A stretch of 58,940 nucleotides of DNA from an uncultured Dokdonia sp. Lineage in GTDB: Bacteria; Bacteroidota; Bacteroidia; Flavobacteriales; Flavobacteriaceae. The notes under the pieces were generated by a model. The model saw only the letters and a program-made list of their open reading frames with translations, made no database searches and was not told the DNA's origin. The DNA lies in NCBI RefSeq assembly GCF_937910895.1, contig NZ_CALEMI010000076.1, positions 1 to 58,940 of the forward strand, in the 5' to 3' direction. A program made the position numbers and the translations under genes. Positions 9,955 to 31,224 of the stretch are shown one piece after another. Numbering within the stretch: position 1 is the stretch's first letter; every line of letters begins with the position of its first letter.

Positions 9955-9970
9955 CGCTTTCGCGAAAGCG
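9955..9970. repeat. 16-bp palindrome, intergenic copy
   Basis: Perfect CGCTTTCGCGAAAGCG, 21 bp before the dCMP deaminase start codon, preceded by TATA. Confidence 0.95.
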
Positions 9971-9990
9971 AACTCCGCATCCTATAATAC

Positions 9991-10422: not shown

Positions 10423-12005
10423 GATTAAAAAAGAAATACATACCCATCCTGTTTAGTTTAGGAATTGTCCTAGGAATTATCTTAGGAAGTTTTCTGAATT
10501 TTGGCTCCTCTACAGACACCGCATTTTTTAATTCCAATAGTAAAAAAGAAAAACTTAGTAAACTTATAGATTATATAGATTATGAGTATGTAGATACTGT
10601 AAATACAGACAGTATTGTAGATGTAACCGTCAATGGAATTTTGGATAATCTCGATCCACATTCTACCTATATTCCACCAGAAGAGTTACAAGAAATTGAA
10701 GAAAACATGAAAGGTGATTTTGTAGGAATCGGGATTCGTTTCTATCCTTATCAAGACTCTGTTGCTGTCATACACGCTATTGTTGGTGGTCCTAGTGATC
10801 AAGTAGGGATACGCGGTGGTGATCGTATTATATCTGCAAATGATATCCCTCTTTCTGGACAAGCCATGAGTGATGATTCTTTATCTAAAATTTTAAAAGG
10901 GCGTGTCAATACCTCTGTAAATCTTAAAATAAAAAGACAAGGAGAACCTGAACTTCTCTCCTATACTGTAAAAAGAGATATTGTTCCCATTTCTAGTGTT
11001 ACGGCAAGCTATATGCTCACAGACCAATTAGGATATATCAAGATTAATAGGTTTGCCGAGTCTACGTATGACGAATTTATAAAAGCGCTTAAAGAACTTA
11101 AGTCTAAGGGTGCGATACAATTAGCCCTTGACTTAAGAGATAATCCTGGAGGTTATGTATCAAGTGCAGAGGCGATAGCCGATGAGTTTCTAGAGAAAAA
11201 TAAACTCATTTTATTTACTAAAAATAAATCAGGAAAGGTCAATAAAACCTACTCAAATCGCGGTGGTATTTTTGAAGAGGGAGCGGTTTTTATTCTTATT
11301 AATGAAAACTCTGCATCTGCTAGTGAGATTGTAGCAGGAGCACTACAGGATAATGACAAAGGATTGATTATAGGAAGACGCTCTTTTGGTAAAGGGCTTG
11401 TTCAAAGGGAGATGTCATTAGGAGATGGGAGCGCTGTAAGACTTACTATTGCCAGATATTATACACCTACAGGAAGATCTATACAGAAACCTTATGAACT
11501 AGGGAATAAAGATTATTTTGAAGACTACTTAGAACGTTATGAAAATGGAGAGCTTCGAAGCGCAGATAGTATTAAAGTCGCAGACTCTCTTAAATTTAAA
11601 ACCCCTTTGGGGAAGATCGTCTATGGAGGAGGAGGCATTATACCAGATGTATTTGTTCCTAAAAATATAGATTATGAGATAGAGCACCTCAATTATTTAC
11701 TGCGATCTGGATACATGCGTATGTTTATTTTTGAAGAATTAGAGAAAGATCGTTCGTATTATAATACACTTTCTTTAGAAGAATTTCAAAATGACATTAT
11801 GATATCCGACACAATTGTCGAAGATTTTATATCTTACGCACAATTAAGGGGAATTAATTTAAGAGCAAAAAAATATAGGAACGTTTATAAAAGCTACCTA
11901 AAAGCCACTATGGCAAAACAGCTCTTTGGCGACAACGCTTTTGAACAAATGGTAAATCAAGATGATGCGATTATCCAAAAAGTCATAAGCCTAAGTGCCA
12001 ATTAG
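10419..12005 (+). CDS. S41-family C-terminal processing protease
   Basis: The 528-residue protein begins with a signal anchor (about 5-24), followed by a PDZ domain containing VGGPSDQVGIRGGDRII (about 122-138) and the S41 protease core. The catalytic serine is in NENSASASEIVAGAL and the lysine lies in RRSFGKGLVQ (about 325-335), the Ser-Lys dyad of Ctp/tail-specific proteases. It should cleave C-termini of periplasmic or envelope proteins. It is translationally coupled to the dCMP deaminase through a 4-nt overlap. The C-terminal extension of about 100 residues after the core is typical for Bacteroidota members. Confidence 0.9.
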   Translation: MRLKKKYIPILFSLGIVLGIILGSFLNFGSSTDTAFFNSNSKKEKLSKLIDYIDYEYVDTVNTDSIVDVTVNGILDNLDPHSTYIPPEELQEIEENMKGDFVGIGIRFYPYQDSVAVIHAIVGGPSDQVGIRGGDRIISANDIPLSGQAMSDDSLSKILKGRVNTSVNLKIKRQGEPELLSYTVKRDIVPISSVTASYMLTDQLGYIKINRFAESTYDEFIKALKELKSKGAIQLALDLRDNPGGYVSSAEAIADEFLEKNKLILFTKNKSGKVNKTYSNRGGIFEEGAVFILINENSASASEIVAGALQDNDKGLIIGRRSFGKGLVQREMSLGDGSAVRLTIARYYTPTGRSIQKPYELGNKDYFEDYLERYENGELRSADSIKVADSLKFKTPLGKIVYGGGGIIPDVFVPKNIDYEIEHLNYLLRSGYMRMFIFEELEKDRSYYNTLSLEEFQNDIMISDTIVEDFISYAQLRGINLRAKKYRNVYKSYLKATMAKQLFGDNAFEQMVNQDDAIIQKVISLSAN

Positions 12006-12019
12006 GGGGATATATTATT

Positions 12020-12313
12020 ATGGTTATAGTTGCATCTGTATTTGTATTTATTATTGCTGTTATTTTTAGATTACTAGATAACAGTGCTAAGCTATTTATT
12101 TCTAACGGAATATCAGTAAGTCCGTTTTATCTTCCGGCAGCAACCGTTATAGAAGAGATGAATAAGCTAGATGACGACAAGTTGAAACAAAAATTAAGAC
12201 GAAACTTACTCTACCAAAAATTACATAAGTTATTTACAATCCTAGCCATTATTACTCTGATTGTAGGAATTGGTTTAGAGATCTACAAGCCAGAACTTAT
12301 ATACCTATTTTAA
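12020..12313 (+). CDS. Small two-helix membrane protein of unknown function
   Basis: The 97-residue protein has hydrophobic segments at about 2-16 and 72-90, separated by a charged helical stretch (EEMNKLDDDKLKQKLRRNLL). No family is recognised. It starts 14 bp after the S41 protease gene on the same strand, so it may be co-transcribed. Its stop overlaps by 4 nt the stop region of the convergent 70-residue membrane protein gene. Confidence 0.6.
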   Translation: MVIVASVFVFIIAVIFRLLDNSAKLFISNGISVSPFYLPAATVIEEMNKLDDDKLKQKLRRNLLYQKLHKLFTILAIITLIVGIGLEIYKPELIYLF

Positions 12314-12522
12314 AGTGAGCGTTTACGCTCTTTTTCCTTCTTAGCAATTTTTCTAGATACGAGTAAGATAAGAAGGAGGATAATAGCACAAGTACTCCCT
12401 ACAATACCAATAAATGCGACCGTACTATCACCTTGAAAAGGAGCTTCAAAATTGATCTGAGTAATATTATAAATAAGTAATAGTGCGGCAAGGATGATAA
12501 ATACTGGAATAGCAATACGCAT
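12310..12522 (-). CDS. Small two-helix membrane protein of unknown function
   Basis: The 70-residue protein has two hydrophobic helices (about 4-21 and 35-56) and a strongly basic tail, RKIAKKEKERKRSL, predicting a cytoplasmic C-terminus. No family is recognised. It starts 5 bp after marC on the same strand and is probably the second gene of a marC operon. Confidence 0.6.
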   Translation of the reverse strand: MRIAIPVFIILAALLLIYNITQINFEAPFQGDSTVAFIGIVGSTCAIILLLILLVSRKIAKKEKERKRSL

Positions 12523-12527
12523 AAGTT

Positions 12528-13112
12528 CTATTTAAATAATTCTTGAATATTTGCAGTAAATAACTTTACCGCAATGGCTAGCAAAATTACACCAAAAACT
12601 TTTTGAATAATAGCGATTCCGTTTTTACCCATAAATTTTTCTATATGTCTAGATGTTTTTAAGACAATATATATAAGTATAATATTGATGGTAATAGCAA
12701 TAAGGATATTTTCTATTTGGTATTCTGCACGTAATGCTAGAAGTGATGTTAAACTACCAGGTCCTGCTAGCAATGGAAATGCCAATGGAAAAACAGAGAC
12801 TGTTTTTGCACTCAAATTTCCATCATCTTTAAAGATACTCACACCTAAAATCATTTCTAATGCTAGGAAAAATAGAATAAAAGATCCTGCTACAGCAAAT
12901 TCATTAACATTAACCCCTATAATACTAAGAATACGTTCTCCTATAAACACAAAAGCAATCATAATAACGAGTGCCACTATAGATGCCTTTTCGCTTTGAA
13001 TATGTCCTGCTTTTTTTCGCAGTTTGATCACAATAGGAATATTACCTAAAATATCAATAACCGCAAATAAAATCATGGTAGCGGCTGTTATTTCTTTTAT
13101 GTCAAAATTCAT
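12528..13112 (-). CDS. MarC-family (UPF0056) membrane protein
   Basis: The ATG at 13112 gives 194 residues with about six hydrophobic segments. DILGNIPIVIKLRKKAG, VSVFPLAFPLLAGPGSLTSL and the closing FGVILLAIAVKLFTANIQEL are characteristic of MarC. Despite the name, no role in multiple antibiotic resistance is established and the transported substrate is unknown. An in-frame GTG at 13127 is only 12 bp from the -7 element, so the ATG is preferred. It is followed after 5 bp by the 70-residue membrane protein. Confidence 0.85.
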   Translation of the reverse strand: MNFDIKEITAATMILFAVIDILGNIPIVIKLRKKAGHIQSEKASIVALVIMIAFVFIGERILSIIGVNVNEFAVAGSFILFFLALEMILGVSIFKDDGNLSAKTVSVFPLAFPLLAGPGSLTSLLALRAEYQIENILIAITINIILIYIVLKTSRHIEKFMGKNGIAIIQKVFGVILLAIAVKLFTANIQELFK

Positions 13113-13138
13113 AATAAAATCTTTCACAAGATGAGTGG

Positions 13139-13146
13139 CAAAATTA
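13139..13146 (-). promoter_or_regulatory. -7 promoter element of marC
   Basis: TAATTTTG on the minus strand lies 26 bp before the ATG at 13112. Confidence 0.55.
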
Positions 13147-13213
13147 CCATAATTTAAAGGATTATAACTGTATAATACGTGTGAAATTAATGCAAAGTAT
13201 AGGTGAATTTATA

Positions 13214-13229
13214 CGCTTTCGCGAAAGCG
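13214..13229. repeat. 16-bp palindrome, intergenic copy
   Basis: Perfect copy; here the palindrome extends outwards to at least ATACGCTTTCGCGAAAGCGTAT, between divergent marC and the DUF3109 gene. Confidence 0.95.
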
Positions 13230-13340
13230 TATACAGGAATATTTTGACATCACATATTCAGCATAAAAAGGTTTTAACACCCAGAAATTGCAAACTCTTT
13301 AAATTTGTAGATAGCTATTTTATAGCTCATACTTTCGAGG

Positions 13341-13348
13341 TATCTTTG
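13341..13348 (+). promoter_or_regulatory. -7 promoter element of the DUF3109 gene
   Basis: TATCTTTG ends only 4 bp before the ATG at 13353, so the transcript should be leaderless or nearly so. Confidence 0.55.
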
Positions 13349-13352
13349 CGTA

Positions 13353-13922
13353 ATGTTTCAGCTTAAAAATACCATCGTTTCTGAGGATATCATAGAAAAA
13401 GATTTTGTGTGTAATCTCAATGCGTGTAAAGGCGAGTGCTGTATCGCTGGAGAAGCTGGTGCACCACTTGAAGAAGACGAAGTCCAAATCCTTAAAGAAA
13501 TCTATGAAGACGTAAAGCCTTTTTTACGGTCAGAAGGGATTGCAGCTATAGAAGCACAGGGAACATCTATCACAACAGCTATAGGAGAGTTGGAAACTAC
13601 CTTGGTCAATGGCGCAGAATGTGCCTACGTCACATTTACTGATAAAGGCATTGCTAGCTGTGGGATAGAAGATGCGTATAATGCAGGAAAAGTAGACTTT
13701 AAAAAACCAATCTCTTGTCATTTATATCCTGTTCGCGTACAAAAATACAGTTCGTTTTCTGCAGTAAATTACCATAAATGGCCTATTTGTGATGATGCGT
13801 GTACGTTAGGAAAAGAATTGCAAGTGCCCGTTTATAAATTTGTAAAGGAAGCGCTTACGCGAAAATTTGGAGAAGCGTGGTACCAAGAATTGGAGGAAGC
13901 TGCAAAGGGAATTAGATCTTAA
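13353..13922 (+). CDS. DUF3109 family cysteine-rich protein
   Basis: The 189-residue protein matches DUF3109: FVCNLNACKGECCIAGEAGAPL near the N-terminus and further cysteines in CGIEDA, SCHLYPVRV and WPICDDAC. The regularly spaced cysteines suggest a metal or iron-sulfur site, like the YkgJ/CxxCxxCC-type families; the biochemical role is unknown. The ATG lies immediately after a -7 element, pointing to leaderless expression. The aminotransferase gene follows after 52 bp on the same strand. Confidence 0.85.
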   Translation: MFQLKNTIVSEDIIEKDFVCNLNACKGECCIAGEAGAPLEEDEVQILKEIYEDVKPFLRSEGIAAIEAQGTSITTAIGELETTLVNGAECAYVTFTDKGIASCGIEDAYNAGKVDFKKPISCHLYPVRVQKYSSFSAVNYHKWPICDDACTLGKELQVPVYKFVKEALTRKFGEAWYQELEEAAKGIRS

Positions 13923-13974
13923 AGCTAAGTCTCGGTATAGGCTGTCTACGTTCTCAAATAGAAAGAAATATACT

Positions 13975-15117
13975 ATGAAGAACATGTCCAAATTGCCAGA
14001 AGTAACCACCTCTATTTTTAGTGTGATGGGGCAGATGGCACAAAAATACGATGCGATCAATCTTTCTCAAGGATTTCCAGGATTTGATACAGATCCTGCA
14101 CTACATGCACTGGTCACAGAAGCTATGGCTTCAGGGTATAATCAATATGCTCCCATGCAAGGCGTTTATAGTCTTAGAGAACAAATTGCATTAAAATTAA
14201 ATACGCTTTATGGGAGTGACTATCATCCAGAAACCGAAGTAACCGTAACCGTAGGTGCCACTCAGGCTATTTATACAGCCATTTCTGCTTTTGTACACGT
14301 AAATGATGAGGTTATTGTTTTAAAACCCGCGTATGATTCGTATGAGCCTGCCATTTTAATCAACGGCGGAAAAATAGTATCTATACAACTCAAAGCCCCT
14401 GATTATACAGTAGATTGGAATACTGTTCAAGAAGCGATCACTCCAGCTACGAAGATGCTGATTATCAATACCCCTCATAATCCTACAGGGACGGTCTTAA
14501 CAAAAGCAGATATGCTTGCGCTAGAACGTATTCTGGAAGGCACAAACATCATCTTACTTAGTGATGAGGTGTATGAGCATATTGTTTTTGATGGTGTGAC
14601 GCATGAGAGTGTCGCCAAGTATCCTAAACTAGCAGACAGCGCTTTTATTACAGCTTCTTTCGGAAAAACATTTCACAATACAGGATGGAAAATGGGATAT
14701 ACAGTAGCACCCAAACATCTCATGGAAGAATTTCAGAAAGTACATCAGTTTACGGTTTTTTCTGTCGATCACCCTATGCAAAAAGCATTTGCTCAGTATT
14801 TAAAAACACCTAGTCATTATTTAGAACTAGGCACTTTTTATCAACGTAAAAGAGATTTGTTTTTAGACCTTATTAAGGACTCTCGATTTAAAATGACGCC
14901 GTCTTTAGGTACCTATTTTCAATTATTAGATTATAGCGATATTACAGAAGAAAATGATGTTCTTTTCGCCGAAAGGCTTATCAAAGAAAAAGGCATTGCT
15001 TCGATCCCAACCTCTGTTTTTAATCTGGATCAAGAAGATTTTAAGATGCTACGTTTCTGCTTTGCAAAAACAGATGAAACTTTGGAGAAAGCAGCTGAGA
15101 TTTTGAATGGGATATAA
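13975..15117 (+). CDS. PLP aminotransferase, methionine aminotransferase (YbdL)-like
   Basis: The ATG at 13975 (MKNMSKLPEV) gives 380 residues, the usual fold-type I length; the longer upstream frame overlaps DUF3109 and lacks family similarity. Visible motifs are INLSQGFPGFDTD, NTPHNPTG, LSDEVYEHIVF and SFGKTFHNTGWKMGY, whose lysine binds PLP. This subfamily (kynurenine/methionine aminotransferases, YbdL) transaminates methionine, glutamine or related substrates to 2-oxo acids. An omega-amidase that would process the resulting 2-oxo amides is encoded 10 kb downstream, so the pair may act in methionine salvage; that link is inferred. Confidence 0.85.
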   Translation: MKNMSKLPEVTTSIFSVMGQMAQKYDAINLSQGFPGFDTDPALHALVTEAMASGYNQYAPMQGVYSLREQIALKLNTLYGSDYHPETEVTVTVGATQAIYTAISAFVHVNDEVIVLKPAYDSYEPAILINGGKIVSIQLKAPDYTVDWNTVQEAITPATKMLIINTPHNPTGTVLTKADMLALERILEGTNIILLSDEVYEHIVFDGVTHESVAKYPKLADSAFITASFGKTFHNTGWKMGYTVAPKHLMEEFQKVHQFTVFSVDHPMQKAFAQYLKTPSHYLELGTFYQRKRDLFLDLIKDSRFKMTPSLGTYFQLLDYSDITEENDVLFAERLIKEKGIASIPTSVFNLDQEDFKMLRFCFAKTDETLEKAAEILNGI

Positions 15118-19786: not shown

Positions 19787-20329
19787 ATGAAAAACGAACC
19801 TTCTATCACAACACTTAGAACTGGAGATTCAGTAGCTTATCAAGTGATTTATGAAGGAAATAGAGATGCTTTTATTGCTTTTGCGAGTAAATATGATCTG
19901 GATCAAGACGCTATTTTGGATGTCTATCAAGAAAGCATGATCGCATTGTATGAAAATATTATGAAAGGCAATGTAAAAGAATTTAGTAGTAGTATAAAAA
20001 CCTATCTCTTTGGGATAGGTAAATTTAAACTCTATGAACAGTTAAGAGCTCAGAAAAAGCTAGTACTTGTCGATGATTTTCAGGATCAGGAAGTACTTAT
20101 AGATGTAGAAACGACTAAGCTCACAGAGCAACAAAAAGCATTAAGAAAACATTTTCAAAAATTAGGCGAGCGTTGTCGTAATATATTAGAACTATTTTAT
20201 TTACAAGGATTTAAAATTAAAGAAATCATGACTGTTGCCAATTACGAAAATGAAAATACAGTCAAAGCACAAAAGTCACGTTGCCTTAAACAACTTAAAA
20301 CAATGATGAACCCCCAAAAGAATGGATAA
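19787..20329 (+). CDS. ECF-type sigma-70 RNA polymerase sigma factor
   Basis: The 180-residue protein has region 2 (about 25-85, AILDVYQESMIALYENI, SIKTYLFGIGKFKL) and region 4 with a helix-turn-helix (about 125-175, GFKIKEIMTVANYENENTVKAQKSRCLKQLK in pieces). It would redirect RNA polymerase to stress or envelope promoters. It overlaps the next gene, a membrane TPR protein with an anti-sigma-like N-terminus, by 8 nt, the usual sigma/anti-sigma arrangement. No TAnnTTTG element was found upstream, consistent with autoregulation from a different promoter type. Confidence 0.85.
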   Translation: MKNEPSITTLRTGDSVAYQVIYEGNRDAFIAFASKYDLDQDAILDVYQESMIALYENIMKGNVKEFSSSIKTYLFGIGKFKLYEQLRAQKKLVLVDDFQDQEVLIDVETTKLTEQQKALRKHFQKLGERCRNILELFYLQGFKIKEIMTVANYENENTVKAQKSRCLKQLKTMMNPQKNG

Positions 20330-21044
20330 GGATACACTTATACATAAATATTTCCATCAGGCACTAAGTGACCAAGAGCGTGTCGAGTTGAACCACCTAT
20401 TGGAAAACGATACTGAGTTTAAAGCGACTTTTGAACTTGAGAAAGATCTTCATGCTGTACTTGTAGCCACTGGGAAAGAGGACTTAAAACAACAGTTTGT
20501 TGATTTTGAAAATCAAGAAAGTCAACCACAGGAAACATCTTCTCCTTCCTTTTTACGATATGCGATTGCTGCATGCATCATTATAGGGCTCAGTCTGTAT
20601 GGGTCTAAATTCTTTATAAACACCACAAGTGCTGATGATCTTTTTGCACAAAATTTTGAAGTCTATCGTAATATTGTACAACCTATAGAGAGAGGTACAG
20701 GACTAGAAACTCCTGAAGAAGAAGCCTTTTTCAAATATGAAACAAAAGAATATCAATCGGCGATAGAAGGATTTCAAGCTGAGTTTTCAAAAACAGAAAA
20801 ACCCTATTATTTATTTTATACAGCAAATGCATATTTGGCGTTGAGAGATACAAAAAAAGCGATTCCATTGCTTGAAAAGCATCAGACTTTTAAAGATGAT
20901 TTTTATGAAAAATCACGATGGTATCTCGCGTTGGCATACCTAAAGGACAAGAATAAGAAAAGCATTCCACTCTTAGAAGAGATCAGTGCGAGTGAGGGAT
21001 ATCATCATAAGGAAGCTAAAGTACTTTTAAAAGCTATTCGTTAA
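20322..21044 (+). CDS. Membrane anti-sigma-like protein with periplasmic TPR domain
   Basis: The 240-residue protein has a helical cytosolic N-terminus (1-60: LIHKYFHQALSDQERVEL, LLENDTEFKATFELEKDL) of the kind found in Bacteroidota anti-sigma and FecR-like proteins. One transmembrane segment (about 79-98) follows, then a periplasmic TPR domain (about 135-240: YLFYTANAYLALRDTKKAI and WYLALAYLKDKNKKS). The gene order and overlap with the sigma gene support sigma binding on the cytosolic side. It ends overlapping by 11 nt the convergent gene for the TPR-CHAT protease. Confidence 0.7.
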   Translation: MDKDTLIHKYFHQALSDQERVELNHLLENDTEFKATFELEKDLHAVLVATGKEDLKQQFVDFENQESQPQETSSPSFLRYAIAACIIIGLSLYGSKFFINTTSADDLFAQNFEVYRNIVQPIERGTGLETPEEEAFFKYETKEYQSAIEGFQAEFSKTEKPYYLFYTANAYLALRDTKKAIPLLEKHQTFKDDFYEKSRWYLALAYLKDKNKKSIPLLEEISASEGYHHKEAKVLLKAIR

Positions 21045-24000
21045 GTTTTGTTCGCTTTCGCGAAAGCGTATACAACACCCCTAAAAGCAAGACTCCACCT
21101 AGTATATACCACCAGAAATACGATTTTTGTACAATAGGGGAGGTGTTGCCACTCAATACAAATCCTGCCCAATAATAGGGATGTCTTAACGCCTTATCAG
21201 ATGTATTGTTGAGGTATGCTAAATTTGATTTTCTAAGCGCAATCTGCTTTTTATCACCTTCTTTTAAATGGGTATAAAATGATTTCATGATCTCCTTTGT
21301 CGATTGATCGTTTACATTCCATAAACTCGTCAGCGTACTATTGGTGCCAGCATAGGTAAATGCTCTGGAGAGACTTTGAAGGTCTTCACCTTCTTTTAAT
21401 ATACCAGTTCCCGTATTACAAGCGCTCAACACCGCGAGTTGCGCTGGGATATTATAGGTGTAAAGCTCATCAAATAAGAGCCGTTGGTTTTTAGAAAAAA
21501 TAAGACTTGATTGCTCGGAGTCTTTAGATGCAGAAAGGGCGTGCATAGCTAGATGCAGAATATCATATTTTTCTTTTTGCTGTATGAAATTTTCTTTCGA
21601 AGCTTCTGTACCCGTGTATAAATCACCATTAAAAATAGCGTTGATCTCCTTACTTTCTTCCTGTGCAAAAGGAAGTTCGTAAAACCCACTTCGTTGCAGC
21701 GCCATCAAGTCACTAGGCATATTTTCATTTTGAGCATAAATAGGTGCAAAAACACCTAAACGTTTTCCGTTACTTTTCAACTCTTTTTGTACTCCTAAAA
21801 GCGGTAGTGAAAAAGCCGTGGAGACAGCATTCGATTCAATTAAGAAATTACCTTCTGGGTTAATGAGTGCCGCAAAAGGGACATAGCTCAGTTCGTTTTG
21901 AGTGATAAAGGTGAGTTCTTTTTTTGAGACATTTTCTAGACCCTCTAAGAAAGGGGCTACGAGTCGTGTGTATAAATCGGCAAACGTTTGTTCATAAGGA
22001 GCTGTTCTATCAAATATGATAGCTCGTTGTGCATCAATAAGCGTATTGAGTTGCTCTCGATCTCCAAGAGGTACGATTTTAAGATTGTCTTTTTGAATAC
22101 GAATTCCAAAAATGCTTTTTTCTCCTATGACATATCGTATAATACATTGATCTTCTGAGAGCGTATTTTGAAATGCAGTTAGTGACCATTGCTCTGAAGC
22201 AATAGTTGCTTTCTTATCTTGTAACCGTTGGATCACTGTTTTAATACTATCTGAGGTTGCTTGAAGTGCAGTCAGATTTTCAGAGGCATCTGTAATCGCT
22301 TTTGATGTAATCGCATCTATTTTTATATCGACAATGTCTTTTAGGATATCAAGATTTTCGGGTATTTCTACATATATATTTCGCTTTCTATTAAAAGTTG
22401 CTGTAAGATGTTGTGATACGTTGTTTTCTATAAGGTTGACCAACTGAGAGGTATCTTCAAATAAGGCTTGATGGTCTAATACGTTTTGATTGATTTGAAA
22501 GATGTATTGCTCTAGGTTTGCATTAAATAATCCATCTTTATACAACTGATTAAATTTTTGAGCTGCGATGTATGAAAGATCTGCTTTTCTGTATAGGTAA
22601 AGAGAATCTTTAGTAGATAAATAGAGTTGGTCATAACCGTCTGCAATGGTTAGCATAGCATTGATCGTCATTGCTGAATTTTCTTTTTCAAAGGAAGCGA
22701 TAGAAAGTCGTTTCTTATCTATGTTGCTACTATCTTTCATCAACTTTACAACAGCTTCTTGTAGATGTGTTATAAAGGATGTTTTGTCACCTGCTTTAAA
22801 TGCAGCCTGTGCTCTTAGGTTTTTAACTCTTGCCTGAAATGTTTTAAAATAAGAAGCGCCTTCAATGGCTATGTCTTCAAATTCGGTATTCATTAGATCA
22901 TATTGCTCAGCGTTAAAATACACTCTACCCAGCATAAACTTAGCCACACTATAATTATGGATACAATCATAGCGTTTCATTTCTTCGGTAAATTCCTTGA
23001 GATATTTCTTATTTTCTTCTGATGTCCAGACAATCTCCATTTTTAAAACAGCCAAGGAATAAGGTTCTAAAAAATCACATCTAGGATTAATCATTGTTTC
23101 TTTAATGCTTTGCATTTTTTGAAAAATGGTCAATGCATTATCAATATCACCCGTATGGGCATAATACCTTAAAAAAGGAAGGTAAAAATAAAGTCGTGTT
23201 GAGCTTTTTGCAAGCTCCCTTTCATGTGGATCAAAAGTGTGTCCTAACAACGTAGAGCCTAACCAGTCCTCTTTTTTGCTCTCTAGCGTTTTTAATGTTT
23301 TAAGTGCAGCATCGTAATCGCCATAGAGTAAGAGTTCATTTACATAGTTTCCTAATTTGTGGATAATAGGATAGGGATCTTTGACATCACTATTCAATCC
23401 AAAAACAATCCCTTTTTTATAGTACTTTAAAGATTTGTTTAAAATATCTTGATCGCTATAATTAGAGCCTATCCAGTTGTAATGTTCAGAGATTAATGAA
23501 GAGTCTACTGCTGTTCCCTGTTGCATAAGCTCTATGCCTAATGCATTGTAATAAGAGGATGCTTTGTAATTTCTTGAATAATTATAAAGGAATCCTAGAT
23601 CAGAATAAATCGATTGGGTGGTGCTAGCAGATGCGTTTTTTAATTTTAAAAAGGTGACATATTCTTTACAAATAACTAGGCAAAAATCAACACCTTTACT
23701 TGGAAAAGCCGTCACATAATAATTACCCACAGAGGAACTTAAGTAGTTCAAGGAATAGTCATTAGCTGGAGTAACTTCTTTGTTTTTCCATACGGAATCT
23801 AAATACGTCAGCCCTTTTTCGACTTCATTATTTTGTATAGCGAGTGACCCTTGCGTTGACCAATATCTTAGTCTGTTAAACGCATATAAAGAATCTTTCT
23901 CGGAAGATTGTTGTAGAACATCTTTTCTAATTTTTAAGGCTTCCTCGTTTTTAAATTCTTTAAACTGCAAAGAGTCTGCAATCCTAGATAAAGATTCCGT

Positions 24001-24069
24001 TTGTTGGGCATATATAAAAGGAATACTAAGAATAAGAAAACTTAAAGTAAGTATTAATTTTCTTTTCAT
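21034..24069 (-). CDS. Secreted TPR-CHAT protease with C-terminal membrane anchor
   Basis: The 1011-residue protein has a signal peptide (about 1-21, ending YAQQ) and a long helical TPR-like region (about 60-520). A coiled-coil-like linker (about 590-625) leads to a CHAT caspase-like domain (about 690-975). The presumed catalytic dyad is His in LHLAMHA (about 843) and Cys in LSACNTG (about 884); SLWNVND and HPYYWAGFVLSG are also typical. A transmembrane segment (about 985-1003) precedes a short basic tail, so the protease domain should face the periplasm. The last residues, TLSRKRT, are encoded by a copy of the dispersed palindrome. It converges on and overlaps the anti-sigma-like gene; a near-consensus -7 (TATCTTTA) lies upstream. 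Confidence 0.85.
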   Translation of the reverse strand: MKRKLILTLSFLILSIPFIYAQQTESLSRIADSLQFKEFKNEEALKIRKDVLQQSSEKDSLYAFNRLRYWSTQGSLAIQNNEVEKGLTYLDSVWKNKEVTPANDYSLNYLSSSVGNYYVTAFPSKGVDFCLVICKEYVTFLKLKNASASTTQSIYSDLGFLYNYSRNYKASSYYNALGIELMQQGTAVDSSLISEHYNWIGSNYSDQDILNKSLKYYKKGIVFGLNSDVKDPYPIIHKLGNYVNELLLYGDYDAALKTLKTLESKKEDWLGSTLLGHTFDPHERELAKSSTRLYFYLPFLRYYAHTGDIDNALTIFQKMQSIKETMINPRCDFLEPYSLAVLKMEIVWTSEENKKYLKEFTEEMKRYDCIHNYSVAKFMLGRVYFNAEQYDLMNTEFEDIAIEGASYFKTFQARVKNLRAQAAFKAGDKTSFITHLQEAVVKLMKDSSNIDKKRLSIASFEKENSAMTINAMLTIADGYDQLYLSTKDSLYLYRKADLSYIAAQKFNQLYKDGLFNANLEQYIFQINQNVLDHQALFEDTSQLVNLIENNVSQHLTATFNRKRNIYVEIPENLDILKDIVDIKIDAITSKAITDASENLTALQATSDSIKTVIQRLQDKKATIASEQWSLTAFQNTLSEDQCIIRYVIGEKSIFGIRIQKDNLKIVPLGDREQLNTLIDAQRAIIFDRTAPYEQTFADLYTRLVAPFLEGLENVSKKELTFITQNELSYVPFAALINPEGNFLIESNAVSTAFSLPLLGVQKELKSNGKRLGVFAPIYAQNENMPSDLMALQRSGFYELPFAQEESKEINAIFNGDLYTGTEASKENFIQQKEKYDILHLAMHALSASKDSEQSSLIFSKNQRLLFDELYTYNIPAQLAVLSACNTGTGILKEGEDLQSLSRAFTYAGTNSTLTSLWNVNDQSTKEIMKSFYTHLKEGDKKQIALRKSNLAYLNNTSDKALRHPYYWAGFVLSGNTSPIVQKSYFWWYILGGVLLLGVLYTLSRKRTKLNE
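21053..21068. repeat. 16-bp palindrome inside the 3' end of the CHAT gene
   Basis: Perfect copy read in the CTT-TCG-CGA-AAG-CG frame, encoding LSRKR in the cytosolic tail. Confidence 0.95.
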
Positions 24070-24101
24070 TGGTCTAACAGTTAGCTGCGAACTAAAGATA
24101 C

Positions 24102-24749
24102 TTAAATTTTATAATCTCTAAAGTTTTCTACCCATTGGGTACAGCCATGACGATACATCGCTTCTTTGTTCTTTAGTCCAACACCCAAAAAGTCAATGTT
24201 TAGTTCTTGTGCGGCTTTTAAGTCCCACAACCCATCTCCGACAGCAACTATTTTTTTGAAATCTTGATTGTAAAAATTCTTAGATTTTTCAATAGCTTCT
24301 TGTACAAAACCTACTCTAGAAATGCTCGTTATGGAAGTTGCCAACACTTCTGAAACTAAAGGGATATTAGCATCTTTCATTTTGATTGCGGTTGCTTTAG
24401 GAAAAGCACCTGTGCCATAGGCAAATGGGATTTCAGATTTTTGAAAATGTAACAAAAGGTCTCTAGCACCAGGAATTTCGATAACAGGATCGTGCTTTTG
24501 AAGTTCCGTTTCTAATAATGTGTCAAGTTCAAATCGAAGCGAATCTGGTGCTTTCTTTCCAAAATTACGCTCATAATTATACTCCAAAGCATATCGATCT
24601 GTGTGGTGTAGGTAATTATCATAATCTGTATCGATGTCTTTCAAGCCAATATCCTCCAGTACTTTAGTGATTACCTTTAGATAGGTAGGAATACTATCGG
24701 TAAGAGTACCATCTATATCAAAAACATATAAGGTATCAGTTTTATTCAT
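24102..24749 (-). CDS. HAD-family phosphatase
   Basis: The start at 24749 (MNKTDTLYVF), shortly after a -7 element, gives 215 residues. Motif I is FDIDGTLTDS (about 8-17), with the nucleophile Asp and the acid/base Asp two residues later. Motif IV is VAVGDGLWDLKAAQELNIDFLGVG, and the cap between resembles the phosphoglycolate phosphatase/beta-phosphoglucomutase branch. The substrate cannot be read from sequence. An upstream in-frame Met at 24830 would extend past the promoter and is rejected. The gene stops 32 bp after the CHAT gene start region, on the same strand. Confidence 0.85.
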   Translation of the reverse strand: MNKTDTLYVFDIDGTLTDSIPTYLKVITKVLEDIGLKDIDTDYDNYLHHTDRYALEYNYERNFGKKAPDSLRFELDTLLETELQKHDPVIEIPGARDLLLHFQKSEIPFAYGTGAFPKATAIKMKDANIPLVSEVLATSITSISRVGFVQEAIEKSKNFYNQDFKKIVAVGDGLWDLKAAQELNIDFLGVGLKNKEAMYRHGCTQWVENFRDYKI

Positions 24750-24785
24750 GTAAATTATCTTTTTGAGTTTTAGGGTACCACTCTT

Positions 24786-24793
24786 CAAAAATA
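24786..24793 (-). promoter_or_regulatory. -7 promoter element of the HAD phosphatase gene
   Basis: TATTTTTG on the minus strand lies 36 bp before the start at 24749. Confidence 0.55.
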
Positions 24794-24931
24794 CTAAATA
24801 TAGCACTTTGGTAATGTGTAAAATGAGCACGAATATTATATAGTATCTAAATCTCTAACTGATGAATAATCATCTTAATATTGCAATATCACGTTAATAT
24901 AATTTATATAAAATTAATTTTAAACTTCTTG

Positions 24932-24939
24932 TATCTTTG
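24932..24939 (+). promoter_or_regulatory. -7 promoter element of the omega-amidase gene
   Basis: TATCTTTG ends 5 bp before the ATG at 24945, predicting a leaderless or nearly leaderless mRNA. Confidence 0.55.
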
Positions 24940-24944
24940 ATCGT

Positions 24945-25721
24945 ATGAAAGAAAATCTTCACATTGCTATTATTCAGACCCATCTTGTCTGGGAAAATGC
25001 GACAGCAAATCGCGCCAACTTAGATATCTTATTAGAGCAAGTATCGGATGAGGTTCACATTGTTATTTTACCAGAAATGTTTACGACGGGATTTAGTATG
25101 AATCCTGAGCCACTTGCTGAGTCTATGAATGGGCACACAGTAGTGTGGTTAAAAAAATGGGCGCAACAAAAAAACACAGCCATTTGTGGAAGTATCATCA
25201 TTACCGAAAATCAAAAGTATTACAATCGATTTTTGTTTGTGAAACCTAATGGAGAGATAGATTGTTATGATAAGCGTCATCGCTTTATGATGGCTGGAGA
25301 AGGAGAATTATATACAGCTGGAGAACATCCAGTACTCATAGAATATAAAGGATGGAAGTTGTTCCCACAAATATGTTATGATTTACGTTTTCCAGTTTTT
25401 GCTAGGAATACGGTAGATTATGATGTAGTCATATACGTAGCCAATTGGCCAAAACCTCGTGTAGCTGCTTGGGATGCTTTACTCAAAGCAAGAGCAATAG
25501 AAAATATGAGTTATGCCATAGGTGTCAATCGTATAGGATTAGATGGTAATGGGCTAGAATATGTAGGTCATTCTGGGATATACAATGTGCTTGGGGATGA
25601 GATCGCTTTCGCGAAAGCGGAAGAAAAAATAATCACAGCTACCTTATCAAAAGAACACATCACAACAACAAGACAGAAGTTGCCTTTTCTTGACGACAGA
25701 GATTTATTTACGCTTGGGTAG
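24945..25721 (+). CDS. Omega-amidase, nitrilase superfamily (YafV/Nit2-like)
   Basis: The 258-residue enzyme shows the nitrilase triad: Glu in LPEMFTTGFSM (about 45), Lys in YDKRHRF (about 109) and Cys in PQICYDLRFPVF (about 143). YafV-type enzymes hydrolyse 2-oxoglutaramate or 2-oxosuccinamate formed by transamination of Gln or Asn, driving methionine-type aminotransferases. A methionine aminotransferase-like gene lies at 13975. A copy of the dispersed palindrome lies within the gene at 25604-25619 and encodes AFAKA in DEIAFAKAEEK, close to the C-terminus and outside the catalytic motifs. Confidence 0.9.
   Translation: MKENLHIAIIQTHLVWENATANRANLDILLEQVSDEVHIVILPEMFTTGFSMNPEPLAESMNGHTVVWLKKWAQQKNTAICGSIIITENQKYYNRFLFVKPNGEIDCYDKRHRFMMAGEGELYTAGEHPVLIEYKGWKLFPQICYDLRFPVFARNTVDYDVVIYVANWPKPRVAAWDALLKARAIENMSYAIGVNRIGLDGNGLEYVGHSGIYNVLGDEIAFAKAEEKIITATLSKEHITTTRQKLPFLDDRDLFTLG
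25604..25619. repeat. 16-bp palindrome inside the omega-amidase gene
   Basis: Perfect copy read in the GCT-TTC-GCG-AAA-GCG frame, encoding AFAKA. Confidence 0.95.
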
Positions 25722-25831
25722 ATTAATTTTTTTGTTAAATACTTGATGGAGGTACTATTGGTATTTTTATTTTCAATGAATCTTACTATATTCATCTCAT
25801 TAAAAATCAATTATTATATACTATAAAGGCT

Positions 25832-26008
25832 ATGAAAAATTTAATCTCTTTAGGTAGATACCTAACAAACAAAGAAAAGAAATTAATAAATGGAGGTGAT
25901 TCTCTGCGTAATGAAAATTTTGACATAGAGAATAGGAGTACACGCTCAGGAGCTCCAGGAGCTGGGACCAATATAAGAATTAGAGGTATAGGGAGTCCCT
26001 GTTGTTGA
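25832..26008 (+). CDS. 58-residue double-glycine leader peptide with SusC-plug-like tail
   Basis: The ATG at 25832 opens a 58-codon frame to a TGA at 26006-26008. The leader MKNLISLGRYLTNKEKKLIN ends in GG (21-22) and looks like the ComC/bacteriocin-type double-glycine leaders seen in flavobacteria, which are cut by peptidase-containing ABC transporters. The predicted mature part is about 36 residues, starting DSLRNENFDIENRSTR. Its tail, SGAPGAGTNIRIRGIGS followed by PCC, closely resembles the plug-domain signature of SusC/RagA-type TonB-dependent transporters (as I recall, GAPGA-x-TSIRIRG-x-GS). The gene stands alone between the omega-amidase gene and a convergent lipoprotein gene. No exporter, modifying enzyme or immunity gene is visible nearby. 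It could be a secreted peptide that mimics the plug; a decayed fragment is less likely because leader and stop are intact. Confidence 0.7.
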   Translation: MKNLISLGRYLTNKEKKLINGGDSLRNENFDIENRSTRSGAPGAGTNIRIRGIGSPCC

Positions 26009-26058
26009 TAATGAAGTAATCAACTCTCTTTTTAAAGATTGAGATAATTGACACTTAT

Positions 26059-27693
26059 TTAATCTTTAAGTTCAAGCGCCTTTATAAGAGACCAACTCGC
26101 ATTTACTTCAATGTCTTCTCCAAAATGAATGACTTTTTCTGGCTGTCTTTTTTCGAGATAGTTTCCTGTATCATATACCTTATTGCCATTTTTATCTTCT
26201 ATGATTTGGATAAGATAGGTAGCAGGTTTTAAGGTGTTAAAGTCAAATACTGTCTCACTTGTTGTATATCGTTCTTGTATTACTTCTCCTTTCAAATCAG
26301 TAAGTTGAATAATATAAGGAAAGTTTTTTGCATTCGTTAAAGTGAATCTGATATTGCCATAATCAGATAGCTCTTTTGTATTTGTTGTAAATGATAGTGA
26401 ATCATTTATAGCTCCAAAAAAATCTGTCATCGCACCAGGTAATGCTGTAATAGTATATTTGGATTTTTCTTCGGTTTTAAAGGTTAAAGAGATATTTGTA
26501 TTTCTTTCAGATAAAAGGAGTGTGTAGTCGATAGGAATAGAATCTTTAACCACACGAATAAGGCTATCTTTTATAGTCTCTAAAGGAATATTACTTTTTA
26601 TTTCAAAAGGTGTATTAAGCACCATCGTTCTTCCAGTTTTTGAAGTAAAACGTAAAGAATCTGCTTTAGGTGTCCGTAGTTTTGCCACTAGGGTATCTAT
26701 ATATCTAGGACCTTTTACTTTAAAAACAAGAGAGTCTATTTCTGGCTTAGGATCAAACCAATAGTATAAGGTATCCGTATTGGTTTTTCGAGAAATCGTA
26801 GATCTAAAATCTGGAATGGTCTCTGTAAGTAAGTCAATAGAAATACTGTCTACAGGGCCTGAAATGCCAAACGTTATTCTATTAGATCCTGAGTGTCTAG
26901 GACGAGATGATTTAGTTTCTAGAACTTCTTTAAATAGTTTTAGCGTATAACTACTATCACTTGGGACAGTTATAAATTGCTTTAAAAAAGCAATTTTGTC
27001 TTTATTAGGTTGAAAGGTGAAATTTGCATCTTCGTCCTTCATCGCTATAAGCATATACTCGCCTTCTTTTATATTTCCTATTTCAAAGGAAGTAAGACTA
27101 TCTAATGTGTTTGTTACATATCTTGGACGCTCATTGTAAATGATAGAATCTGTAAACGTACTATCTACTGTATATAGCATGACCGACACAAAATTATCGG
27201 GCTTACTTTTTAGCTCGTCTATAATGACTCCTTTGACCGTGAGACTATCTATATAATCTCCTGTGGAAAACACATATTTGAAATAAGAAAATGGATTGCT
27301 TTCATTGTTATCTACAATACTTTGTCCAAAATTAAATACATAAGTCGTATTAGGTTCTAGAGTGTCTTTAATTTCAATATTCACATATTTAGACGCAGAC
27401 CCTTGAGGAGAAATAACACTATTTTCAAGAGGTGGAGAGATAATCAGTTGTTTTTGATAGTCTTTAAGCTTGATATATTCATCAAAATAAATACGAATTC
27501 GATTCCCTTCAAAATTGGTAGTATAGTTAGGTGGCTCAGATTTAATAAATACAGGAGGGATACTGTCTTTTAGACCTCCAGTAGGAGAACCTCTCTTTGC
27601 ACAATTCACCAAAGTAAGCGACATAAACGCGATTACTCCAAGATAATAAAGGCACTTTTTTATTTTCAAAATGTATATAGATGTCGTATTCAT
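26059..27693 (-). CDS. Ig-like domain lipoprotein
   Basis: The start at 27693 (MNTTSIYIL) gives 544 residues with a signal peptide and lipobox LTLVNC (Cys about 31). The mature protein opens KRGSPTGGLKDSIPPVF, then RIRIYFDEYIKLKD and PNTTYVFNFGQSIVDNNE, matching the bacterial Ig-like (Big_5) domain proteins common in Bacteroidota. Later beta-rich repeats end with YLIQIIEDKNGNKVYDTGNY. It is probably a surface or outer-membrane lipoprotein of unknown role. A near-consensus -7 (TTTCTTTG) just before the start suggests a short leader. The gene is downstream of comF on the same strand. Confidence 0.8.
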   Translation of the reverse strand: MNTTSIYILKIKKCLYYLGVIAFMSLTLVNCAKRGSPTGGLKDSIPPVFIKSEPPNYTTNFEGNRIRIYFDEYIKLKDYQKQLIISPPLENSVISPQGSASKYVNIEIKDTLEPNTTYVFNFGQSIVDNNESNPFSYFKYVFSTGDYIDSLTVKGVIIDELKSKPDNFVSVMLYTVDSTFTDSIIYNERPRYVTNTLDSLTSFEIGNIKEGEYMLIAMKDEDANFTFQPNKDKIAFLKQFITVPSDSSYTLKLFKEVLETKSSRPRHSGSNRITFGISGPVDSISIDLLTETIPDFRSTISRKTNTDTLYYWFDPKPEIDSLVFKVKGPRYIDTLVAKLRTPKADSLRFTSKTGRTMVLNTPFEIKSNIPLETIKDSLIRVVKDSIPIDYTLLLSERNTNISLTFKTEEKSKYTITALPGAMTDFFGAINDSLSFTTNTKELSDYGNIRFTLTNAKNFPYIIQLTDLKGEVIQERYTTSETVFDFNTLKPATYLIQIIEDKNGNKVYDTGNYLEKRQPEKVIHFGEDIEVNASWSLIKALELKD

Positions 27694-27800
27694 GAATGTA
27701 GCAAAGAAACAACTAATTTTTAGCCAAACGAAATACTTATTAGTGAAACCTAATGTTGAGAAGTCTGTAAGACGCACTCAACATTGTGAGTTGAACTAAT

Positions 27801-27823
27801 CCCGCTTTTCAGCGGGTTTTCTT
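27801..27823 (+). terminator. Hairpin CCCGCT/AGCGGG with following T-rich tract
   Basis: CCCGCT-TTTC-AGCGGG is followed by TTTTCTT on the plus strand. It lies between comF and the Ig-like lipoprotein gene, both on the minus strand, where it lacks a T run, so its orientation is puzzling. Confidence 0.45.
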
Positions 27824-27852
27824 AATCGTATTTTAACTCTGTATTTAATCAT

Positions 27853-28533
27853 TTATTGCGCTATTGCCATCGTTGCGATACTTAACTTTATTTTAGGGAT
27901 TTTAAGCAATTGTAAGGCACATGCTTCTAGTGTAGCGCCTGTCGTAAGAATATCATCTACGAGTAGAATATGTTTTCCTGCAAGCGTTTGGTTTTCGGTA
28001 ATTGAAAACGCATCCAATATTTCATCACTTCGAGAAAAACGACCTTTGAAAACTTGTGTTTTTGTGTTTTTTGATTTGATTAAAACATGACCGACATGAC
28101 TGGCTTCCAAATGTTTTGACAATGCAATCGCAAATCCAGTGACTTGATTATATCCGCGTTTTTTTCTTTTTTTTGGATGTATAGGCACAGGGATTACCAC
28201 ATCTATATTCTGATAGGCAGGTAATTGAGCTAGTTCTTGCCCTAGCCAATCACCCAAAAAAGCACTAATTTCTTCTTGACCTCTGTATTTGAGATTATGT
28301 AACAGCGCTTGGACAGGACCTTTCTTTTCAAAATAAAACAATGCCGTAGCCTGCTCTAGTAAAATACGACCATAAAATACTTTTTGAATAAGCGCATCGT
28401 TATACACATGAGATTGAGTAAGTGGTAAGTGATGCCTGCAACGTGTACAAATCATATATTCTGATGCCTGTAAGCTTTCAGAACATCCGTGGCAAGCTTT
28501 TGGAAATAAAAAATAGCGGAGTGATTGCAACAT
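27853..28533 (-). CDS. ComF family protein (phosphoribosyltransferase-like)
   Basis: The 226-residue protein has an N-terminal zinc-ribbon-like set of cysteines (CHGC near 14-17 and CTRC near 29-32). It continues with a PRTase-like fold with VIPVPIHPKKRKKRGYNQ and the PRPP-binding loop ILLVDDILTTGATLEA (about 188-203). ComF proteins take part in DNA uptake or recombination in naturally competent bacteria; the molecular step is unclear. No other competence genes are in the window. It is likely the first gene of a two-gene unit with the lipoprotein. Confidence 0.9.
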   Translation of the reverse strand: MLQSLRYFLFPKACHGCSESLQASEYMICTRCRHHLPLTQSHVYNDALIQKVFYGRILLEQATALFYFEKKGPVQALLHNLKYRGQEEISAFLGDWLGQELAQLPAYQNIDVVIPVPIHPKKRKKRGYNQVTGFAIALSKHLEASHVGHVLIKSKNTKTQVFKGRFSRSDEILDAFSITENQTLAGKHILLVDDILTTGATLEACALQLLKIPKIKLSIATMAIAQ

Positions 28534-28587
28534 GCATTTGTTATTTTTTTTCTAATTTAACCCCTTTTCAAAGAATATAAAATTTCT

Positions 28588-29469
28588 ATGAGTACTAAAA
28601 GTACTAAAAACACACTTCTTTTACTGACCATACTGCTTTGTGTAGTTGTTCTAGGCTTAGGCGCATACACCGTAAAGTTTTATGGTGAGGTGCAAGAAAA
28701 CGAATCTCAACTTAAAGAAGAAAAAGCATTTATTGAACAAGAACTCAAGGAAGAAATAAAAAGATATAACGAAGTATTATCTGAAAAAAACATCCTAGAA
28801 AATGAGCTCTCTGATGCAAAAGAACACTTAGAAGATTTACAAAAACGCTTAGATAGCAATAAGATCACACAATCTATTGTAAGAGCGTATCGAATAGAAC
28901 TTACGAAGGTACGTCGTGAGAGAGAACTATTATTTAAACAAAATGATAGTCTTCTTAATGAAACAGAACGACTGGCAAAGCTCCAAGCAGAAACACAAGA
29001 TGCTCTGGAAAAGGCGACAAAAGCACAAAGCACCCTAGAAAACGATAACAAAGCCCTTATTGAAAAAATAAATATAGGAGCTCAAATTACAGCGAGTAAT
29101 CTCATTGTACGAGGCGTCATACAACGCAACAGCGGTAAGTTTTTAAATACCTCAAGAGCAAATCGAGCTAAAATGGTACGGATTTGTTATGAAGTAAATG
29201 AGAACAAACTAGCAAAAGCAGGTACCCTGAATTTCTTTGTACAAGTACTTAACGGTCAAGGAAAAATGATAGGTGTCCCCAGAGAAGAAAAACTTTCTAA
29301 TGGCGAAAGTATTCGCTTTAACTCACGTACATCTATTCCCTACAGTAATAAGCCTTTTAATGTATGCGAACTTGTGCTGCCAGTGCAAACTTTTGAAGAA
29401 GGAACCTATACCGTTAATGTGTTTCATGAAGACAGACTTTTGCTAACTTCGCCACTTGTCTTAAAATAA
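28588..29469 (+). CDS. Membrane-anchored coiled-coil protein of unknown function
   Basis: The 293-residue protein has one N-terminal membrane segment (about 9-30), a long charged coiled coil (about 32-165) rich in E, K and L, and a C-terminal beta-rich domain (about 170-293). That domain runs from NLIVRGVIQRNSGKFLNTSRA through VRICYEVNENKLA to YTVNVFHEDRLLL. I do not recognise the C-terminal domain; it looks like a small extracytoplasmic beta-sandwich. It diverges from comF with 54 bp between starts. Confidence 0.75.
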   Translation: MSTKSTKNTLLLLTILLCVVVLGLGAYTVKFYGEVQENESQLKEEKAFIEQELKEEIKRYNEVLSEKNILENELSDAKEHLEDLQKRLDSNKITQSIVRAYRIELTKVRRERELLFKQNDSLLNETERLAKLQAETQDALEKATKAQSTLENDNKALIEKINIGAQITASNLIVRGVIQRNSGKFLNTSRANRAKMVRICYEVNENKLAKAGTLNFFVQVLNGQGKMIGVPREEKLSNGESIRFNSRTSIPYSNKPFNVCELVLPVQTFEEGTYTVNVFHEDRLLLTSPLVLK

Positions 29470-29504
29470 CAGCACTTCAATTTCTTCAAATTAAGTGGTA
29501 TCCC

Positions 29505-29512
29505 TATTTTTG
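29505..29512 (+). promoter_or_regulatory. -7 promoter element upstream of glycyl-tRNA synthetase
   Basis: TATTTTTG lies 176 bp before the glycyl-tRNA synthetase start. The leader would contain a palindrome AAGGATATATCCTT (29556-29569) and a copy of the dispersed repeat. Confidence 0.45.
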
Positions 29513-29620
29513 CGATCTTATTAGTTTCATAAACCTAGTTTTTTAGATGGATGTTAAGGATATATCCTTGATGATAAGAAAATAAGAAGATACTCAGGTA
29601 ACGACTTGTAAAGGCATATA

Positions 29621-29636
29621 CGCTTTCGCGAAAGCG
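29621..29636. repeat. 16-bp palindrome, intergenic copy
   Basis: Perfect copy, 52 bp before the glycyl-tRNA synthetase start codon, preceded by ATATA. Confidence 0.95.
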
Positions 29637-29688
29637 TGTAAAGCAACAAAACAATAGAGCAACAGCACAAAGAAATACAAAATACATT

Positions 29689-31224
29689 ATGGCTAAGCAA
29701 GAAGATCAATTCAAGAAAGTAATCTCTCACGCAAAAGAATACGGGTATATTTTTGGGAGTAGTGAGATTTATGACGGATTAAGTGCCGTATATGATTATG
29801 GACAGAATGGCGTGGAGCTCAAAAAAAATATCCGGGAGTACTGGTGGAAAAGTATGGTCAATATGCACCAAAATATCGTAGGTCTTGATGCCGCAATATT
29901 TATGCATCCTACCACTTGGAAAGCCTCTGGTCACGTAGATGCTTTCAGTGATCCTTTGATTGATAATAAAGATTCAAAAAAGCGATATAGAGCTGATGTT
30001 CTGGTAGAGGATTATGCAGAAAAACTAAACCAAAAGGCAGAAAAGGAAATTGCCAAAGCAGCCAAATGTTTTGGAGATTCCTTTGATCGTGCTCAATTTG
30101 AAGCGACCAATCCGCGTGTATTGGGATATAGAGAAAAAATGAAAGCAGCTACGGGTCGGTTAGCAAAATCTTTGGATGCAGACGATCTAGCCGATGTAAA
30201 AGCACTTATTGAAGAGTTAGAAATTGTATGTCCGGTTTCTGGTTCAAAAAATTGGACAGATGTACGTCAGTTCAATTTGATGTTTGGAACCAAGTTAGGG
30301 GCTTCGGCAGAAACAGCAACCGATTTGTATTTACGCCCAGAAACAGCTCAAGGAATTTTTGTGAATTTTTTGAATGTGCAAAAAACGGGGCGCATGAAAA
30401 TTCCTTTTGGAATTGCGCAAACGGGAAAGGCTTTTAGAAATGAGATTGTTGCAAGACAATTTATCTTTCGTATGCGAGAATTTGAACAAATGGAAATGCA
30501 ATTTTTTGTGCGCCCAGGAGAAGAAATGAAATGGTATGAGTACTGGAAAGAAACAAGATTAAACTGGCATACATCCTTAGGGCTTGGAGAAGAGAACTAT
30601 CGTTTTCATGATCACGAAAAATTAGCACACTACGCAAACGCAGCGACAGATATTGAGTTTAATTTTCCATTTGGATTTAAAGAATTGGAAGGGATTCATT
30701 CCCGTACTGATTTTGACCTGAAAGCTCATGAAGAATTTTCGGGAAAGAAATTGCAATTTTTTGATCCAGAATTAAACGAAAGCTATGTGCCTTATGTGGT
30801 GGAGACTTCTATAGGTCTTGATCGTATGTTTTTGGCTGTTTTTTCAAATTCATTGCAAGAGGAGGAATTAGAAGATGGGAGCTCACGTGTAGTGCTTAAG
30901 TTACCAGCTATTTTGGCTCCAGTGAAAGTGGCGGTATTTCCATTAGTAAAAAAAGATGGATTACCAGAAATAGCAAAGAAGATTGTTGATGATTTGAAGT
31001 TTGATTTTAACGTGATCTACGACGAAAAAGATGCCGTAGGAAAGCGTTATAGACGTCAGGATGCTGCAGGAACTCCATTTTGCATTACAGTAGATCATGA
31101 CACAATAAAGGATCAAACGGTAACGATCCGTCACCGTGACTCTATGAAACAAGAGCGAATTGCTATTCAGGACATTAACGCAATTATTGAGCAACAGGTA
31201 AGTTTTAAGAGTTGGATATCTTAG
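29689..31224 (+). CDS. glyQS: Glycyl-tRNA synthetase, single-chain class II
   Basis: The 511-residue enzyme charges tRNA-Gly with glycine. It is the archaeal/eukaryotic-like alpha2 form, not the split alpha/beta form: SGHVDAFSDPLI near the N-terminus, LRPETAQGIFVNF, RNEIVARQFIFRMREFEQME (motif 2) and ETSIGLDRMFLAVF (motif 3). The C-terminal anticodon-binding domain covers about 400-500 (LAPVKVAVFPLV, YRRQDAAGTPFCITVD). Start ATG at 29689 fits family N-termini. It is probably transcribed alone from about 29520. Confidence 0.95.
   Translation: MAKQEDQFKKVISHAKEYGYIFGSSEIYDGLSAVYDYGQNGVELKKNIREYWWKSMVNMHQNIVGLDAAIFMHPTTWKASGHVDAFSDPLIDNKDSKKRYRADVLVEDYAEKLNQKAEKEIAKAAKCFGDSFDRAQFEATNPRVLGYREKMKAATGRLAKSLDADDLADVKALIEELEIVCPVSGSKNWTDVRQFNLMFGTKLGASAETATDLYLRPETAQGIFVNFLNVQKTGRMKIPFGIAQTGKAFRNEIVARQFIFRMREFEQMEMQFFVRPGEEMKWYEYWKETRLNWHTSLGLGEENYRFHDHEKLAHYANAATDIEFNFPFGFKELEGIHSRTDFDLKAHEEFSGKKLQFFDPELNESYVPYVVETSIGLDRMFLAVFSNSLQEEELEDGSSRVVLKLPAILAPVKVAVFPLVKKDGLPEIAKKIVDDLKFDFNVIYDEKDAVGKRYRRQDAAGTPFCITVDHDTIKDQTVTIRHRDSMKQERIAIQDINAIIEQQVSFKSWIS

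Follow-up and report, generated by a model that had tools for sequence, protein, structure and literature searches.

A short double-glycine leader peptide gene with a SusC-plug-like tail in an uncultured Dokdonia genome

Results

An intact peptide gene in an insert between convergent genes

The window is a 58,940-nucleotide stretch of contig NZ_CALEMI010000076.1 from an uncultured Dokdonia sp. It carries, on the forward strand at 25832-26008 (stop included), a 58-codon gene whose intact frame translates as MKNLISLGRYLTNKEKKLINGGDSLRNENFDIENRSTRSGAPGAGTNIRIRGIGSPCC, with a double-glycine (GG) leader and a SusC-plug-like tail. The leader occupies residues 1-22 (25832-25897, forward strand) and ends in LINGG; it was delimited by leader alignment and profile, and cleavage by a C39 peptidase is predicted after Gly22. 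Residues 36-56, STRSGAPGAGTNIRIRGIGSP (25937-25999, forward strand), bear the SusC/RagA plug signature, as judged by a plug profile and by scores against SusC proteins of the same genome. The translation closes with two vicinal cysteines, residues 57-58 (26000-26005, forward strand), which set it apart in cysteine count from other cores of its kind. The frame, the leader end and the tail are those reported in an earlier note on this DNA. A single-sequence structure model (mean pLDDT 59.6), judged too weak for fold comparison, contained a low-confidence helix spanning residues 3-21 and left the core unstructured.

The gene lies in an insert of ~337 bp (25722-26058) between two convergent genes, and the insert is absent from 17/17 congeners. 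The upstream neighbour (24945-25721, forward strand) encodes a carbon-nitrogen hydrolase (PF00795), and the downstream convergent neighbour (26059-27777, reverse strand) encodes a protein with Big_5 and DUF2141 domains (Pfam). Both neighbours are present in all 17 congeners, where the aligned gene ends are -5 to 94 nt apart, compared with 343 nt in the own genome, indicating that ~337 bp were either gained here or lost elsewhere; a gain in this lineage is the simpler reading. The G+C content is 0.29 for the insert, 0.20 for its upstream part and 0.48 for the plug-coding part. A mobile element with target duplication was considered and set aside, as the flanks share only a 17-nt direct repeat of 76% identity, which is not convincing.

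The Bacteroidetes-type promoter has the consensus TAnnTTTG. A possible promoter of this type, TTG-N18-TACTATTG, with one mismatch, is located at 25732-25760 (forward strand), and it is not significant, as an equally good site occurred in 227/1000 shuffles. Such a site was present in only 15/87 GG-peptide candidates. A sigma-70 scan gave no promoter on the strand of the gene, and no convincing terminator was found in the insert. The Pfam scan of the nine neighbouring proteins (19787-31221) revealed neither a transporter nor a recognisable immunity protein; seven belong to other families and two have no Pfam family. This neighbourhood includes a 1011-aa CHAT-domain protein (21034-24069, reverse strand) near a sigma-70 region 2 protein (19787-20329).

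The earlier note had raised the possibility that the frame is a fragment of a nearby decayed SusC gene. This origin was rejected on three grounds. A six-frame search of the window finds the pattern [IVF]R[ILGV]RG only in the peptide gene; the own-genome matches to TIGR04056, 47 in all, fall on other contigs; and the gene sits in an insert that separates two conserved genes.

The leader belongs to a large GG-peptide repertoire

When the leader was aligned with those of two GG peptides of the same genome, on contigs C14 and C91, 7/22 columns were invariant. The leader type is LGxxLxxxExKxxxGG, and the conserved hydrophobic and charged positions are present in the window peptide. A profile built from these three rows, on which the window leader scores highest by construction, recovered many similar leaders in the own genome. 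At E ≤ 5 it gave 38 matches there (G000), 32 in G011, 35 in G007 and 28 in G015, and 0-8 per genome in the other 14 of the 18 genus genomes; the weak end of these matches includes chance ones inside long frames.

We read 60 stretches from G000, G007, G011, G014 and G015, which cover part of the leader-profile matches, a few of them chosen for transporters or plug genes. Applied to these stretches and to the loci of the leader-profile search, a motif filter requiring a core of at least 12 residues retained 86 distinct candidate GG peptides; L166 was dismissed by eye as a false positive, and its core is too short to be counted among the 86. The loci read in the own genome contained 29 recognised GG peptides at scattered sites. 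Cysteine-rich peptides of this kind lie on many of its contigs, for example at L111, L115, L121 and L122 (contigs C160, C8, C142 and C71 of G000). Three to eight cysteines are found in 84/86 candidate cores. The remaining two are the window peptide, with the two cysteines of its terminal CC only, and the L145 peptide of genome G011, which has none and carries another leader type.

Among the 57 congener peptides read, a match at E ≤ 0.001 was found for 13/29 own-genome cores, one of them just at the limit, and none for the other 16, the window peptide included. A private core is therefore common here and not special to the window gene, and core turnover in the GG-peptide repertoire is usual. 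The large-genome members of the clade possess a large, scattered and apparently fast-turning repertoire of GG peptides. No curated leader model in NCBIfam or Pfam matched the window peptide, and the sibling GG peptides scanned (seven in NCBIfam, four in Pfam) also fell below cut-off.

Export machinery and known GG-peptide systems

C39 ABC transporters, which the earlier note had proposed to look for, are present: the own genome has four C39 peptidase matches over cut-off, and two of these, on contigs C85 and C31, correspond to complete C39-ABC proteins (729 and 730 aa). One of the four, at G000:C91:57390-57830, has an internal TAA. A transporter gene beside the peptide gene is absent among the nine neighbouring proteins; adjacency was not treated as strictly required, because sibling GG peptides lie on many contigs.

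The window peptide resembles the C39-exported GG peptides of its own genome in leader type, small gene size and the presence of C39 ABC transporters in the genome. It differs in its core: 84/86 candidate cores have 3-8 cysteines, whereas the window core has two adjacent ones and a plug motif. With class I lanthipeptides it shares a GG leader and a core containing Ser/Thr and Cys, and LanC and LanB are encoded on contig C31, but the window gene lies outside that cluster. In the class I lanthipeptide locus itself (L119, G000:C31:17000-34500), a C39 ABC transporter is encoded beside LanC and a split LanB, and a VKOR-thioredoxin protein and two GG peptides lie close by.

Bacteroidetocins (class IIf) are likewise short Bacteroidetes peptides with a GG leader. 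Their leaders have 15-16 residues, bacteroidetocins A and B have four cysteines and the wider set at least two, and transport and thiol oxidoreductase genes lie nearby (PMC6671954). The window peptide departs from them in its 22-residue leader and in its neighbourhood, since neither a transporter nor a thiol oxidoreductase was recognised in the nine proteins scanned there. It has two cysteines, adjacent and at the C-terminus. Among the literature records listed, judged by titles and abstract openings, none described a GG peptide with a SusC plug core.

The tail resembles the SusC plug

Scored on a profile built from 23 SusC plug segments, residues 36-56 reached 63.5 bits with all columns positive, compared with a mean of 11.1 and a maximum of 28.6 for 20,000 shuffled tails; the segments came largely from SusCs fetched for likeness to the peptide or its DNA. 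Because of this selection, an independent yardstick was taken from the own genome, in the form of its three SusC proteins that exceed the TIGR04056 cut-off. Their signatures differ from that of the peptide, which scored 44, 46 and 52 against them; among 487 further short frames of 40-80 aa, drawn from the window and from loci L109-L168, the maximum was 32. Against seven SusC examples, the window peptide reached 79 and the next best of the 86 GG candidates 33. By the plug profile and the own-SusC yardstick alike, the plug signature claimed earlier for the tail stands, within residues 36-56. At the level of sequence, the resemblance of the tail to the SusC plug signature is genuine and unusual.

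A sequence this short gives little signal in general libraries. The sole NCBIfam listing for the peptide was TIGR04056 (E = 0.34, 9.1 bits, against a cut-off of 368.25), the Pfam scan gave no family, and phmmer against the PDB returned no SusC, only four sequences (transglutaminases and uS11) at E ≥ 0.25. The peptide shares with SusC/RagA (TIGR04056) the plug signature at residues 36-56 but has no barrel, its 58 aa contrasting with a model of 981 positions; the whole plug and barrel of SusC/RagA transporters (~1000 aa) are absent from it.

Two more extensive correspondences were examined and rejected. BLAST matches spanning, for example, query residues 23-55 raised the possibility that the whole mature core is SusC-like, but residues 23-35 fell mostly in negative columns. 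The +1 frame past the motif reads VPVVDNEVINSLFKD, resembling the PLYVVDG part of SusC, as if a longer plug had been frameshifted; compared with six SusC stretches, this post-stop frame scored within the range of shuffles (P = 0.142 over 1000).

Elsewhere in the own genome (L127, positions 5007-14630, G000:C161), three consecutive long frames of 1314, 1017 and 821 aa match the N-terminal portion of the SusC model several times over and possibly encode plug-bearing, barrel-less proteins.

Leader and plug-like tail occur together in one genome

The earlier note had named a lack of homologues with both leader and plug-like tail in related genomes as one of the outcomes that would refute its proposal. 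This outcome was obtained: among all genomes searched, the two were found together in the own genome only. The sets searched overlap and are samples of larger groups, and the counts include the own genome unless noted. The peptide search gave matches in 3/59 relatives at E ≤ 0.01, of which the two non-self ones have frames of 1036 and 996 aa, and in 2/18 genus genomes at E ≤ 0.1, the other being a 1055-aa frame. That frame makes G012 the only one of the 18 genus genomes, own included, with a matching SusC-length frame. Matches were obtained in 8/397 family, 2/395 order and 3/395 phylum genomes, the non-self ones lying in open frames of 931-1154 aa. A second family draw gave 7/298, at the same seven places as the first, and the own genome was not among them. 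The own-genome C14 and C91 peptides matched weakly, mainly through the leader.

A scan of genome_contigs gave at least three relatives among the matches listed (at least 592 stretches); these match residues 26-55, 34-55 and 36-55, and none of them has the leader. Searches of viral contigs and phages gave no relatives. Plasmids gave four places on Persicobacter replicons at E 0.7-0.9, covering query residues 26-55 or 36-55. At the DNA level, matches at E ≤ 0.01 were found in 31/397 family genomes, own included, many of them near query bases 50-94 (25945-25989), where they fall in SusC genes of other genomes. The plug pattern lay in a long open frame at 9/14 of the non-self DNA-match loci fetched.

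Codon comparison and the C14 peptide

No donor SusC was identified: inside the plug segment, the own-genome DNA search gave only pieces of 14-15 nt, and the best own-genome piece (25999-26040) matches the end of an ORF on contig C50 that has no plug. Identical codons at identical residues amounted to 130/346 between the peptide and 26 SusC genes and to 1405/3841 among SusC genes themselves. The two rates are the same, so there is no sign of DNA-level descent and the DNA evidence is neutral. The tail of the C14 peptide aligns ungapped with the window tail at a score of 38, a value reached by 0.27% of 3000 shuffles, and this alignment hints at what may be an ordinary paralogous core.

Discussion

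Our best reading of the core is that it represents a captured or convergent plug fragment. The explanation that we prefer, and that we regard as about evenly poised between right and wrong, is that the gene is a young, genome-specific member of a scattered GG-peptide repertoire, most likely with a captured SusC fragment. It is supported by the intact frame, by the many similar leaders in large-genome congeners and by the presence of C39-ABC proteins; by a SusC-like segment that far outscores shuffled tails, the remaining GG peptides and the further short frames compared; and by the conserved convergent neighbours, which lack the gene between them in 17/17 congeners, together with the usual turnover of cores. 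Against it count the lack of a donor in the own genome, the differing signatures of the three own SusCs, the codon rate no higher than that among SusC genes, the post-stop frame that is no more SusC-like than shuffles, and the C14 tail with its hint of an ordinary paralogous core. The core differs from those of its cysteine-rich siblings because 21 of its residues match the SusC/RagA plug signature. By this explanation, a short stretch of SusC coding sequence would have been captured downstream of a GG leader, giving the one-gene insert that conserved genes flank. If the gene is expressed, the leader helix would be recognised by a C39 peptidase-ABC transporter whose gene lies at another locus, and cleavage after Gly22, as expected from the family, would release a flexible 36-residue peptide beginning DSLRNENF. 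Such a peptide, if active, probably acts as other secreted GG peptides do, in competition or signalling.

A rather unlikely alternative is convergence, by which an ordinary GG core of the C14 type (GxPGxGxxxxxxGIxxPC) would have acquired the plug motif through chance drift, independently of SusC. The codons have no excess likeness to SusC, and the C14 tail is the best ungapped match among the other 85 candidates (38, next 26), but the P of about 0.003 precedes the picking of the best of 85 and loses significance once that choice is allowed for, only 31/69 positions of the codon-aligned DNA are identical with C14, and the score against SusC is roughly double (79 against 38). We also consider it unlikely that the insert is inert, an untranslated or non-functional piece of recombinant scrap whose frame is open by chance. 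The leader keeps the conserved positions of its family and no stop interrupts the 58 codons, against which stand the occurrence in one genome only, the low G+C (0.29, and 0.20 in the upstream part) and the lack of a significant promoter or terminator in the insert.

The earlier note went further and proposed that the peptide mimics the plug, blocking or signalling through a SusC barrel; beyond the motif, this gained no positive support. That an exported peptide inserts into, blocks or signals through SusC transporters, whether those of competitors or its own, appears improbable. In its favour, the motif is nearer to two other-genus SusCs of the family (79) than to the three of the own genome (44-52), the former having been fetched for likeness to the peptide, and G012 alone in the genus has a matching SusC-length frame. 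A precedent also exists in the bacteroidetocins, peptide toxins from Bacteroidetes that work through BamA, a barrel protein of the outer membrane (PMC8546649). Against it, the peptide was found in one genome with no conservation, no recognisable immunity or transport gene lies among the nine neighbouring proteins, and only ~21 plug residues are present, in a core without fold in the single-sequence model (mean pLDDT 59.6). Moreover, the plug of a SusC-type transporter sits inside the barrel, which counts against such mimicry. Improbable too, in our estimate, is the specific scenario in which the plug fragment, exported via a C39 transporter, jams or triggers the SusC-type nutrient transporters of neighbouring cells. 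With a partial plug and no recognisable transporter or immunity protein among the nine neighbours scanned, action on a SusC barrel is speculation. In our view, no function of the plug sequence is so far demonstrated or conserved.

Should the peptide be produced and act on SusC-type barrels, it would offer a way of disturbing transporters that are major in the nutrient uptake of Bacteroidota by means of a piece of the transporters' own plug. Even without a role at SusC, the gene suggests that exported peptides may draw their cores from unrelated genes, and it directs attention to the large and scattered GG-peptide repertoire of this clade.
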